Below are positions 23,671 through 33,899 of a stretch of 64,000 bases of DNA, one piece after another. A program made the position numbers and the translations under genes. The stretch's first letter is position 1; every line of letters starts with the position of its first letter. The stretch covers positions 558,001-622,000 of the forward strand of contig JAIXMP010000028.1 of NCBI GenBank assembly GCA_025677815.1. Direction: 5' to 3'. The notes under the pieces are model-generated. The model saw only the letters and a list, made by a program, of their open reading frames with translations. It was not told where the DNA came from and ran no database searches. This DNA comes from Phascolomyces articulosus. Its lineage: Eukaryota > Mucoromycota > Mucoromycetes > Mucorales > Lichtheimiaceae.

Positions 23671-23950
23671 ATGAATAGAAAGGTATGTATATATAGATAC
23701 CTTATGATGTTTAAAAAACAACAAAAAATTAAAGTGCTTTTTCACCAGCCAAGCATCATTTCCAAAAAGTCAACCGCTAAATTTAGTATTAAATCTTATA
23801 GACACAGGTTCTTTTTTGTTAACAATATCTTTAAGCTTGGACCAAAATTCCTCGATTGGGTTTTGAAACGGACAATATGGTGGACGATAAATAATGAATG
23901 ATTATCAGCATTATCTAAGCATGACATCAGTATGGAAGATTGTGGCTACG
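23671..23950 (-). pseudogene. Decayed Tc1/mariner-type DDE transposase fragment
   Basis: On the minus strand, YRPPYCPFQNPIEEFWSKLK (about 23830-23890) matches the hallmark C-terminal block of DDE_3/Tc1-mariner transposases (PPYSPxLNPIExFWSxxK). About 15-20 residues upstream, in another frame, lies LDNADNHSL, matching the second catalytic-Asp block (xDNAxxH). Frameshifts and stops separate and follow these blocks, so the copy is dead. A further fragment at about 25130-25254 (minus, RYGRNETPLICGEGTLK) could be more of the same gene on the far side of the foldback element. Confidence 0.72.
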
Positions 23951-24134
23951 ATGTTGGTAAGTGAGCACCTAGCCACTTCCATATTTTCAAGTTGAATTGT
24001 GTATACTTATGCTTCATAAATATATGATACTCGTCCTGTGTATACTTTCTCTGTTTATCAATATCTATATAACAATTCTTGTTCTTGGCTCCAGTCTTAT
24101 TTTGTTAAGTTTTTAAATTTATTTTTCGATTTAA

Positions 24135-25124
24135 TACAGGATATTGAATTCAATACCGGACACAGCAATTTTTTTTAGACTGTAGGTTTTTTTTTTAACA
24201 AATGGGGTTTTTTTTTAGTGAGTGGGAGGAAAACTTAATGAGTGGGGAATTTTAGTTCAGATTTGGCCAGCAGCTTTCACTTGTGGGCTAAAGGTTTGGC
24301 AAACGACCTGAAAATTTAACAAACAGCCTGAAGATTTGGTATACAGTTGGATAACTTTCACTCTTAGGCTTCCATTTAACATACGGCCTGAAAATTTTCA
24401 CTCATAGGCATTTTTAATTTAACACAGAGCCTGGAGATTTTCACTCATAGGCTTTTTAGCTTAGCATATGGTCTGAAAATTTTCACTCGCAGGCTTTTTA
24501 ATTTAACATACGGCCTGACAATTTGACACAAGGTCTGGAAACTATTGCTCATGACTCCTGTAGTGAAAGTATTTCATTCGTTAGTAAGATTTATTTGATC
24601 ATTTATAAAACCATAAAGTAGCCAAAGGCAAACTATGTATTATCTTGCTTAAAAATAAAATGACCGATTATGAAAGTTTTTTGGCCATATATCAAAATCA
24701 GAACCCATGAGCAAAGGTTTCCAGACCTTGTGTCAAATTGTTAGGCCGTATGTTAAATTAAAAAGCCTGCGAGTGAAAATTTTCAGACCATATGCTAAGC
24801 TAAAAAGCCTATGAGTGAAAATCTCCAGGCTCTGTGTTAAATTAAAAATGCCTATGAGTGAAAATTTTCAGGCCGTATGTTAAATGGAAGCCTAAGAGTG
24901 AAAGTTATCCAACTGTATACCAAATCTTCAGGCTGTTTGTTAAATTTTCAGGTCGTTTGCCAAACCTTTAGCCCACAAGTGAAAGCTGCTGGCCAAATCT
25001 GAACTAAAATTCCCCACTCATTAAGTTTTCCTCCCACTCACTAAAAAAAATCCCATATGTTAAAAAAAAAACCTACAGTCTAAAAAAAAATTGCTGTGTC
25101 CAGTATTGAATTCAAAATCCTGTA
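24135..25124. mobile_element. Foldback (long inverted-repeat) element, about 990 bp
   Basis: The left arm 24135-24553 and right arm 24706-25124 are reverse complements of each other over 419 bp each, with only a few mismatches. A 152-bp spacer lies between them. The outer ends are TACAGGATATTGAATTCAAT and its complement ending ATCCTGTA. The flanks fit a TA (or TAA) target duplication, as for Tc1/mariner-type elements: TTAA-TACAGG on the left and CCTGTA-TAATAA on the right. There is no coding capacity, so the element is non-autonomous. It lies about 200 bp from a dead Tc1/mariner transposase. The high arm identity implies recent origin or ongoing gene conversion between the arms. Confidence 0.85.
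24378..24546. repeat. Internal 42-43-bp tandem units inside the foldback arm
   Basis: Units start at about 24378, 24421, 24463 and 24505. Each follows the pattern AACATACGGCCTGAAAATTT, then TCACTCATAGGC, then TTTTTAATTT. The inverted copies lie in the right arm at about 24713-24885. Related but shorter GCCTGAA/GACCTGAA blocks precede them from about 24285. Arrays of subterminal repeats like this are typical of foldback transposons. Confidence 0.7.
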
Positions 25125-27218
25125 TAATAAAGCAAAAATTCGACTTATCAATTCTTTTCAAATAAATTTTGAGGGTCCCTTCGCCACAAATCAAAGGGGT
25201 TTCATTCCTCCCATATCGTAAACGTGTCAGGAATTTCTTCTGATTCAAAAGCAAGCATTAATATAATCACCAAACTGTTTCTAGGTAGGCATATTAGAAA
25301 TATATACGTTTTCCTTGAGCGAATTTCAAAAAAAAAAAAAGTAATATACAGGCTTACGTATTGAAAACAAAATGTTTTTTCTTTTTTTCAAAAACACTTT
25401 TTCTATACATCCAGCATTTACTTTATCCACAAACGTCATTACTAGGTATTATTAAATAACAAAATTTTATTTTTTTATATAATAAGGATGTTGTCAGTTT
25501 TGTCAACAAGTCAACGAATGTATGTCTAGCTTGCCACATTAATCTGTCGAGTATGTTGCTATATAAACTAGGCTTGAAGGATCTTTTCCGAAATGATAAT
25601 TAACTAAAAATATCGGCTGATTGTTAGTTCGTACAATACTTATACTGACACAGTAGTCATAGAATATCTTCATTTGAACATCTTCGATTGGATTAACTGG
25701 ACTACATTATGAACCAACGCTATAAAATTTCATCAGGTTGTTGTGGAAACACTAAGTAATGGTTTATTAACGGAATAATCTAATATGAAGCTATTTTGTA
25801 CATTGAGTATTTTTTATGCACCTTTGGAACGATAACTGGTGAGACATGTTTTATGTGTTTTGCTGCTATAACTATGGATATTGAGGACTAACATACAAAT
25901 TCATACGTGCCACAATGGAGCGATTTTAAGAGATCTGCTGCATGATATAAACGAGAAGCAAGGATACAACTCAAGGATCAATTATCAAATATGCTTACCA
26001 CTTACATTCGAATCCTCTGTCGACGCTGGCTATGCCTATACCACTCCATCCGTCTGTTGCGCATCTGAATTTTATCAGACCAGGCTGCTGTGATTTGCCT
26101 TTTGGGAAATTTGTCAAATCAGTGGGGGCACTGAGTTACTAGGTGAAGTAACAATACCATCACAGCAATCTGCTTAACACCTATATAATAATAGTCACTT
26201 AACGATATTTAATATAGTATGTATTCGTTCTCTAGTCACGGCAACTGATACCACAGAGCCTCTTGCAAATCAAGCACAACACCAGGAACACACTACAAGC
26301 TTGAGGAACAGAGAATATCAGTAAGTTTTTTTAAAAAAAAGTTTGAAAAGTTATGATTATCTTATTTCCTAATCATCATTTGAACTTAATTATTAGACCT
26401 TATTATTATTATTATTATTATTATATAGGCACTAATCGATGTTCCGATGGGAACAACAAAAAACAATCAAACATCATCTTGAGTACCAGGACGAGGAAGC
26501 CCAACAAGGCCATCCGGAAGCGACCGATCCTAAGAAGGTCATATAACAGTGCTAAGCACTATACACACAGAATATGTATCTGAATAATTATCAGGATGTG
26601 ATGTGTTTTTTTCTAAAGGAGCAAAAAAAAACTAATTCGTTTTTTTTTTTTTTTTTGGAAAGGTGCCTTTGGTTTTTTGTAGCATATGGAAATACCTAAT
26701 GATTAACTGTGCGTAATACTCTGGAAAAACATGTTAATAAATTAGTTAGCCTATTATCTGATTAAATGATATCCTAGTAAATTTTGCCTGCTATGCGCAT
26801 ATTCTTTCCTTGATACAAAAAACGTGAATAAAAAATTTAGTCTTAGTAGTATGTATGAAAATTGGGCAAAAATGAAGCTTCTTTTGACGAGGACATCTAG
26901 TACGTTGTCAGTCGATTGTAGTAAAAGGCCTAAGAAGGTCTTAAATTCATAAATATAGTTACGAAAAACATGGACTATTATATTACACAAAACATAACAA
27001 ATATACATATGAAAATTGCATAAATAAAAACGACTGTGCAACAACATATTGACCAGGCGAAATCAATTTCTTAAATTTGAACGCAATTTATGCAGTGGGT
27101 CTTGAGGTTATGCTTTGTTCGTGATTGAGGTTACATAGTATTTGAAAATCTGATTTTCATTGTTCTGATCTTTTCTTTGTACCTCGTCCGAATCTACTCT
27201 TTCTGCCTCGAACAAATA
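25125..27218. other. Intergenic with coding-like relics
   Basis: No intact gene. 25130-25254 (minus) may be transposase-derived. The + strand at about 25880-26095 carries a 70-codon frame with no known motif. A possible spliced pair is seen at about 26235-26320 (TATDTTEPLANQAQHQEH) ending in GTAAGT, followed by a TATTATTATTA tract and an acceptor at 26428-26429, but the downstream frame closes quickly. A (TTA)n tract lies at 26400-26425 and a T run at 26640-26656. I see no function. Confidence 0.45.
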
Positions 27219-32079: not shown

Positions 32080-32680
32080 CCCGCATCATCGGGCACTAGT
32101 TTTGCTCTACACCATCATCATCACCAGCAATCCCAAGTGTTATTCCCAACGATACTCGCAGTGCTCAAAGGCCAAAGACCAATGATCCGCTTATAAAATA
32201 AACTTCATCGTCGACTTTAGATTGCAAAGTCTGCCGGGAGCAAAGCGACCGTACAATTTATACCTTCTGTCCGGATCACGTCCAGTACAGCCTTGATGAA
32301 GCCCACCCATTGACTAAACCTTTTCCAATTATACCAATAGCTAATGTTGAGAAAGGGACCCGGTCAACAAGAGCCTGGAATAAAAGGTTAAGGAGACGCC
32401 ATAGGGTAAAATAAAAAAAGATAAAAAACAATAAAGAAAAATGACTCGATCCCTTTTGTTGTAAAAAAGGGTCCGTGCGTTGAACAACACAAAGAACCCG
32501 CGCCCCCGTCAAAGGCAGACAATGTCTACCCTGGTTCCCTGAACAGGTACTTAAATGGGCCCTAAGGTCACTCGGCGTGCTGCACTCGACATTCCTCCCG
32601 ACAGGAATTCGACGGTTTCCGCCTCATAATAGTCAACGGAATAAACCATTAACTACTACATCGCTATCCATACCCCGGCA
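32080..32680 (+). pseudogene. GC-richer, coding-like decayed tract of unknown origin
   Basis: This 600-bp patch is visibly less AT-rich than its surroundings. On the + strand, one frame reads SAQRPKTNDPLIK, stop, then TLDCKVCREQSDRT, then YTFCPDHVQYSLDEAHPL, then KGTRSTRAWNKRL. CxxC with CxxH is zinc-ribbon-like. Later parts shift frame. I recognise no family. The changed composition and many stops suggest a degraded insertion or gene relic. Confidence 0.35.
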
Positions 32681-32705
32681 CAGCGATTCTATGTGTTGCT
32701 ATGCT

Positions 32706-32836
32706 ATCGAGTGTTGGGTTTTTTTAATCGAGTGTTGAGTTTTTTTAAATCGAGTGTTGAACTTTTTTAAATCGAGTGTTGAACTTTTTTAAATCGAGTG
32801 TTGAACTTTTTTAAATCGAGTGTTGAACTTTTTAAA
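32706..32836. repeat. Six-copy 21-22-bp tandem repeat
   Basis: The unit ATCGAGTGTTGAACTTTTTTAA starts at 32706, 32727, 32749, 32771, 32793 and 32815. The left two units carry GTTGGG and GTTGAG variants, while the right units are nearly identical. The array directly abuts the right edge of the GC-richer tract. Confidence 0.92.
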
Positions 32837-33899
32837 TTGTTGTGCATCTACCAATTTACTAATAAAAAGGAACTAAGATCAATAAAAGAAACAAGAACAA
32901 ATGAAGAATGCATTTTGAAAGACTTGCCGTTTTTTGGCGTTTTTTTGTTGCTCACGAAAGAAAGAAAAAGGGCTTATTTATACCCTTTGAATGTTTAAGA
33001 TCAGATTGACATGTGAAGTTCTTTGTGGCCAATAAAAAACCTCCAACCAAAAAAAAAATTCTTTGGTTACGTGTTCCTTCGATCAATACTTTCTGATGTG
33101 ACATAAACAATCGATATGATAAATACTATAGTAATAAAAAGATATTTAATATAGTGTAAATACGTATAACAGTGTTTTGCTTGGTAATAAAACACATGTA
33201 TTATGTTGTAGAAAAAAAGAAGAATTGTGCGATATTACCATGTATTGTATGCAAAATGATCTATGAAAAAAATAGTCTTTTGTATGTACTGTGTTTTTGG
33301 TATTTTTTTTTTTTTTTGAAGTAACCAAACTTTATCAGGGGCACGCAAACATCTCCTCATAAGACTTAAACGTAAAAAAGTAATAACCAAAAAAAAACAT
33401 ATGATGATTTAGTGTAACTTATCTTAAAAATATGTGCAAATGTATGTTTTTGTTATGTTCTACGTTTATGTATAGATATTTGAGTATCCTTAGTTATACA
33501 TGTCAGCAACAAATTAAAAGGGGACTTGACTATTATTTTTTGCCGTACTCATTTCTCTCTTTTTTTTTCTGCCGTAAAACAATATGATGTCTTATTATTG
33601 TTGATTTTATCTAATATACATCGTAATATATGATTTTATATCAAATAATTCCCATTATTTATATATATATATGTGTGTGTGTGTGTGTGCGTGGAGTATG
33701 GTGATTTATATCAAAGCAAGTAAAATTTTACTATTACACTTCGAGAATTAAAGAGTCATAGTAAAACTTCTAATCTGTTGATTATATATAACGGCGCAGC
33801 CTGTTGGAAGAAGTTTTTAAACTTGTTGCGTACATATATCATTAAAATAGCAATAATAATCGTTGTCTATCATCTTCATTTCAATACTACATAAACGTT
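32837..33899. other. Intergenic, low-complexity
   Basis: No gene seen. It contains T runs (33301-33317), a (TA)n(TG)n tract at 33659-33690 and several A-runs. Confidence 0.5.

Follow-up and report, generated by a model that had tools for sequence, protein, structure and literature searches.

The window, that is, the whole 64-kb stretch of DNA that was analysed, sits on contig C32 and carries an inverted pair of 419-bp arms spaced by 152 bp (24135-24553 and 24706-25124). Together they form a foldback of 990 bp in total, 85% of which is arm sequence. Its ends, of the TACAGRATTTTGMATT type, read TACAGG...CCTGTA. As judged from open frames, the foldback is intergenic, with a Tc1/mariner transposase relic about 240 bp away. 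The features of the locus, together with two further foldbacks from the same genome, are as follows (positions are those of the window unless a locus is named):

23732..23895, minus strand: relic of the C-terminus of a Tc1/mariner transposase (PPYCPFQNPIEEFWSKLKD), L020 family; a neighbour, outside the foldback
23984..24134, plus strand: left part of the older repeat hosting the foldback; matches the empty site on contig C23
24135..25124, no strand: whole foldback including both TA target copies; the element proper is 24137-25122
24135..24136, plus strand: left TA of the probable target duplication
24135..24157, plus strand: left conserved terminus, family 1, TACAGRATTTTGMATTSAATACC
24135..24553, plus strand: left arm, 419 bp
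24275..24524, plus strand: left subterminal array of degenerate units of about 20-22 bp, TTTCACTCATAGGC-like and TTTAACATACGGCC-like
24554..24705, no strand: spacer between the arms, 152 bp; no further copy in the whole-element genome search
24706..25124, minus strand: right arm, 419 bp, repeating the left arm in inverted orientation
24735..24985, minus strand: right subterminal array, mirroring the left one
25102..25124, minus strand: right conserved terminus
25123..25124, plus strand: right TA of the probable target duplication
25125..25171, plus strand: right part of the older repeat hosting the foldback; matches the empty site on contig C23
L082:788-1532, contig C15: foldback with family-2 ends and TA edges, 743 bp, self-alignment 80% identical
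L084:1500-1836, contig C15: foldback with family-2 ends and TA edges, 335 bp, self-alignment 78% identical

A gapped comparison finds the arms 7 substitutions and 2 one-base indels apart, in agreement with the near-perfect 419-bp inverted arms and 152-bp gap reported in a preliminary description of this DNA. The ungapped comparison gives 22 mismatches, because the two one-base indels, located in T runs, shift the register. Two other statements of that description also hold: there is no gene inside, since no stop-to-stop frame lying wholly within the foldback exceeds 46 codons, and the adjoining transposase fragment fits a decayed neighbourhood. The single strand of the foldback is predicted to form a hairpin of -750 kcal/mol, compared with a shuffle mean of -215 (SD 8, n = 20). 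The runner-up inverted match in the 64-kb window measures 42 bp at 86% identity (201-241 with 389-430; self-comparison, E up to 1e-3), and this short best match outside the element, taken with a fold energy far below that of the shuffles, excludes a chance origin of the mirror. The architecture is that of a foldback element, with long inverted arms, short tandem units and a scant interior. The possibility that the foldback interrupts the Tc1 relic of the left flank was considered and rejected, as no corresponding relic pieces lie to the right of it.

A paralogous site that lacks the insert exists on contig C23. Linked through a single TA, the flanks of the foldback align with C23:988596-988803 at 77% identity across the junction. 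None of 5000 shuffles and none of 4992 random 60-mers of the window reached the homology of the right flank to C23; for the left flank, none of 5000 shuffles did. The foldback thus jumped into an older, diverged repeat, an empty copy of which survives.

The preliminary description had left the target as TA or TAA, and the flanks of the window do read TAA on both sides. The best fit to the empty site is obtained with one TA, which leaves a 1-bp indel (the join is 1 base longer); the two-TA join leaves 3 bp, and by hand count a one-TAA join falls 4 bases short of the C23 site. The alignment thus favours TA over TAA, as a preference and not as proof, given the other indels and the 23% divergence. 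A table of 14 two-ended elements was also compiled, comprising four non-coding ones (the foldback, one on C47 and two on C15) and ten coding elements with the DDE_3 transposase domain. TA stands at both edges in 14 of 14, a figure that is in part a product of the table itself, whose entries were aligned on TACAG-like arm edges, and next-3-bp agreement occurs only in the window. It is therefore more likely that the duplicated target is TA, as in Tc1/mariner elements, the TAA alternative being disfavoured by the 13 other elements together with the C23 site. The recurring end described below, the paralogous empty site and the TA edge bear out the description of the locus as a TA-type foldback transposable element.

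The TAA variant corresponds to a PIF/Harbinger-type foldback that ends in TACAGG and duplicates the 3-bp target TAA. PIF/Harbinger elements duplicate a 3-bp TWA target, to which the TAA|TAA arrangement of the window conforms, and the genome contains 51 matches to their transposase domain PF13359. However, a 3-bp flank match is seen in none of the three other non-coding elements (C47 and twice C15) and in none of the ten DDE_3 elements, so the TWA pattern does not hold overall. The one-TAA join being 4 bases short of the C23 site, against 1 base too long for the one-TA join, points the same way, weakly in itself at 23% divergence. A PIF/Harbinger origin is thus improbable.

The 23-base terminus of the element (family 1), searched with up to 3 mismatches, has 13 matches in the genome, two of which are the window's own; the reversed pattern has none. 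Eight matches at seven loci were accepted as ends (C1, C19, C31, C35, C47 twice, C86 and C89), the matches on C17 (twice) and C22 being excluded as their TACAG edge was changed or unlike. With an end on C12 added, the terminus recurs at eight loci outside the window. Two ends were counted in spite of an altered edge: the one on C12 (TGTAG) and the one on C31 (TGCAG), the latter with no array visible behind it. Arrays are present behind the family-1 ends at L066, L067 and L068, and none is evident at L071, L074 and L078. On C47 two family-1 ends alone form a 52-bp palindrome (L060:1501-1552), and on C89 the end pattern has a palindromic match of 26 bp (L074:1501-1526); each is a possible minimal derivative. 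At L005:4175-4340 the C12 end lies 16 bp behind a tRNA-Asp gene and stops after about 70 bp, before retrotransposon-like frames that look gag- and RT-like by eye.

The arms themselves have no second copy in the whole-element genome search, which skips very common words, so that their single-copy status holds at its sensitivity. The sole arm match elsewhere in that search comprises 69 outer bases on contig C12. For the 42-bp unit, a 25-base piece searched with up to 3 mismatches gave six matches in the genome, all six within the foldback. Only the ends and the unit motif recur elsewhere. The foldback consequently does not belong to a multi-copy family of identical elements, and the many near-identical short copies typical of a MITE were not seen at the sensitivity of the search.

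Tandem Repeats Finder detects a 42-bp unit in both arms, with 4.0 copies in 24356-24524 and another 4.0 in 24735-24903 (76-77% matching). About four units of 42-43 bp per arm, as first described, are thus present, but they are better split into half-units of about 20-22 bp: the strongest period of the arms is 20, followed by 40, 42 and 21, which makes the 42-bp unit a doublet. A unit matrix was built from 27 units of three other family-1 ends, with the window sequence excluded. On the left-arm array it finds 7 units scoring at least 5 bits (shuffle mean 1.16; 7 reached by 0 of 1000 shuffles), and none of 1000 shuffles and none of 780 window pieces attained the sum of the five top scores. For the best single unit score of the window arm, 24 of 1000 shuffles do as well.

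The genome also contains ends of a second family, TACAGGTTTTTTCRTAAGAARTTKACCATAG, with 11 matches and none for the reversed pattern; this family carries a unit similar to that of the foldback. With the same matrix two family-2 arms score 42 and 46 and the window 49 (raw scores for family 2). Both foldbacks on C15 belong to this family. Three long family-2 copies (L086, L087 and L088) have about 1.1 kb in common, counted from one end, beyond which they diverge; in a fourth, L081, the contig runs out after 0.95 kb of the shared sequence. Neither a second end nor a gene was found in these four copies. A DDE_3 match lies on C92, 5 kb from a family-2 end.

The DDE_3 (Tc1/mariner) profile has 93 matches in the genome, and 30 loci (L006-L035) were cut out and examined. 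An inverted repeat spans the gene at 19 of the 30 and is lacking at 11; ten elements were tabulated, the loci left out being L008-L014 (arm to the locus edge), L026 (uncertain end) and L033 (31-bp repeat only). All ten have a TA edge, and their 20 ends comprise 17 CAG, 1 CAA and 2 TAG. The ends of Tc1-like elements begin with CAG, as do those of the foldback. The DDE_3 domain was found in all five transposases scanned. Compared with solved structures, the L020 transposase matches only Sleeping Beauty at E up to 1 (E 0.001), and relatives of the L024 transposase in Circinella, Lichtheimia and Rhizopus are annotated as Tc1-like. Seven of the loci, L008-L014, share the same 377-codon open frame with near-equal scores, which may mean recent Tc1/mariner activity.

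Six of these elements (L015, L020, L024, L028, L030 and L031) resemble the foldback in their TA|CAG ends, long arms and mostly 19-23-bp subterminal period. They differ from it in coding for a DDE_3 transposase and in their shorter arms of 85-180 bp; in L015, L024, L028, L030 and L031 the inverted arms measure 138-180 bp and are 75-98% identical. Periodicity was assessed in 14 arms, one from the window, three each from families 1 and 2 and seven from DDE_3 elements, among which L015 and L030 belong to one family and L016 and L020 to another. The top period is 19-23 or its double in 13 of the 14 (the exception, L028, has 14), and its strength beats all 200 shuffles in 12, L067 being equalled by 31 of 200 and L016 by 6 of 200. 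For the DDE_3 arms alone, the top period is 19-23 or its double in 6 of 7, and likewise 6 of 7 beat all 200 shuffles. Within the window, positions 32706-32837 contain a direct tandem array with a 22-bp unit, ATCGAGTGTTGAACTTTTTTAA (6.1 copies, 94% matching), the period of which equals that of the subterminal arrays of the Tc1/mariner-type elements of this genome; no TACAG end lies within 32640-32900.

On five DDE_3 families the family-1 unit matrix scores no higher than on random window pieces (mean 10.8, SD 9.5), the best-strand values ranging from -5.5 to 19.2 for arms that are shorter; the units of L015, L020, L024 and L028 differ from those of the foldback in this respect. Among the DDE_3 loci examined, no coding element turned up that bears family-1 or family-2 ends. 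The L024 family includes a solo end, L046 (89% identity over 293 bp), which agrees with family 1 at 15 of the 16 outer bases, compared with only 12 of 16 for the own ends of L024; since L046 was found by the family-1 pattern search, the likeness is partly selected. The end on C1 was examined as part of a possible coding family-1 element and rejected, the DDE_3 match 2.9 kb inside it lying in a relic; with up to 3 mismatches allowed, C1 shows no family-1 end on the opposite side.

The preliminary description took the high arm identity as a mark of either recent activity or conversion. All 9 differences between the arms fall in the outer 75 or the inner 37 columns of the alignment, and the 308 columns between them are identical, an arrangement with P = 5e-5 under uniform placement of the differences. 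Since the arms fade out in the region of the inner differences, the outer ones are more telling: 4 substitutions in 75 columns versus 0 in 308 (about 0.001, hand calculation). With 308 identical columns amid diverged ends, conversion between the arms after insertion would explain their identity better than a recent jump. Constraint on the array would be a less likely cause.

Taken together, the foldback is very probably a non-autonomous, foldback-shaped DNA transposon of the Tc1/mariner type. The designation "Tc1/mariner-type", and not membership of a named family, is used because no coding element with the exact ends was found and the unit matrix is negative in the five DDE_3 families tried. 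The arrays would offer several binding sites each to a Tc1/mariner-type transposase that acts in trans. Such an element could originate when one end with its array is copied in inverted orientation over the interior, leaving arms only. A transposase made elsewhere would then bind several units of each array, pair the two ends and cut at TA; the units of about 20-23 bp, about two DNA turns apart, are presumably lined-up transposase sites, and arms-only copies would retain everything such mobilisation needs. After insertion, gene conversion between the arms, or template switching, may have homogenised their inner 310 bp or so, a process that would keep the hairpin near-perfect while the outer ends age.

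The hairpin, if transcribed, could feed RNAi, and the genome has four Piwi-domain (Argonaute) loci and five RdRP loci. These genes and the very strong predicted hairpin would also suit a hairpin RNA locus that is kept because its RNA yields small RNAs and whose transposon origin is incidental. An arms-only transposon would nevertheless give everything observed anyway, and the arms match nothing in the whole-element search except the C12 end, so that a target is not evident; this explanation is very improbable. In shape, with long arms of short tandem units and little else, the element also recalls a classical Foldback/Mutator-type element such as FB or Tm1, the latter as portrayed in excerpts of PMC3169594, in which case 9-bp duplications would be expected and the TACAGG ends would be coincidental. 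The flanks, CGATTTAA and TAATAAAG, show no 8-10-bp duplication, and such an assignment is scarcely credible. Large palindromes are a known class of assembly artefact, yet a chimeric inverted copy made in the library or assembly is just as hard to credit, because the mirror stops at a terminus motif that recurs at other loci and, at the level of the assembly, a paralogous empty site exists without the whole insert; the arms moreover differ by 7 substitutions.

Long, internally repeated arms are already known from Galileo, Tm1 and Bari, as excerpts of the respective papers attest. According to the available text of PMC4877112, the Bari2 and Bari3 elements and Bari MITEs of Drosophila (Tc1/mariner) have inverted repeats of about 250 nt and non-coding derivatives, and three 18-nt direct repeats per end serve transposase binding. 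Compared with these three repeats, the foldback has a near-continuous array of units in each arm and arms amounting to most of the element. Galileo, a Drosophila element of the P superfamily, has long terminal inverted repeats (TIRs) of varying length, some internally tandem-repeated; its arms-only copies were initially filed as Foldback-like, and multiple transposase sites are considered a convergent trait (PMC3573991, in the parts available). It differs from the foldback in its P-superfamily transposase and in its tandem unit of about 210 bp versus about 21 bp here. Tm1 of root-knot nematodes (Mutator/Foldback) has composite arms of 13-15-bp tandem units, 93% identical on average, and MITE-like members, but, unlike the foldback, 9-bp duplications and a Mutator-type transposase (PMC3169594, again from excerpts). 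Among the matches listed, the fungal-transposon literature, in the extracts available, contains no report of a foldback Tc1/mariner-type element with arrays of about 21 bp in a mucoralean fungus.

Foldbacks are usually classed by shape; here the TA edge, the ends and the empty site tie the one in the window to Tc1/mariner-type transposons, in parallel with the earlier assignment of Galileo to the P superfamily. Within a single genome there is a graded series, from long-armed coding elements through foldbacks of 990, 743 and 335 bp to a 52-bp pair of ends, which lets one ask how subterminal arrays grow, homogenise and feed silencing. A wider and rather doubtful conjecture is that several divergent Tc1/mariner-type families of this mucoralean genome share TA|CAG ends and arrays of about 20-23-bp units, the foldbacks being arms-only derivatives kept as exact mirrors by conversion and maybe persisting as hairpin templates for RNAi against their own mobiliser family. 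The element itself illustrates how arms-only elements may arise.
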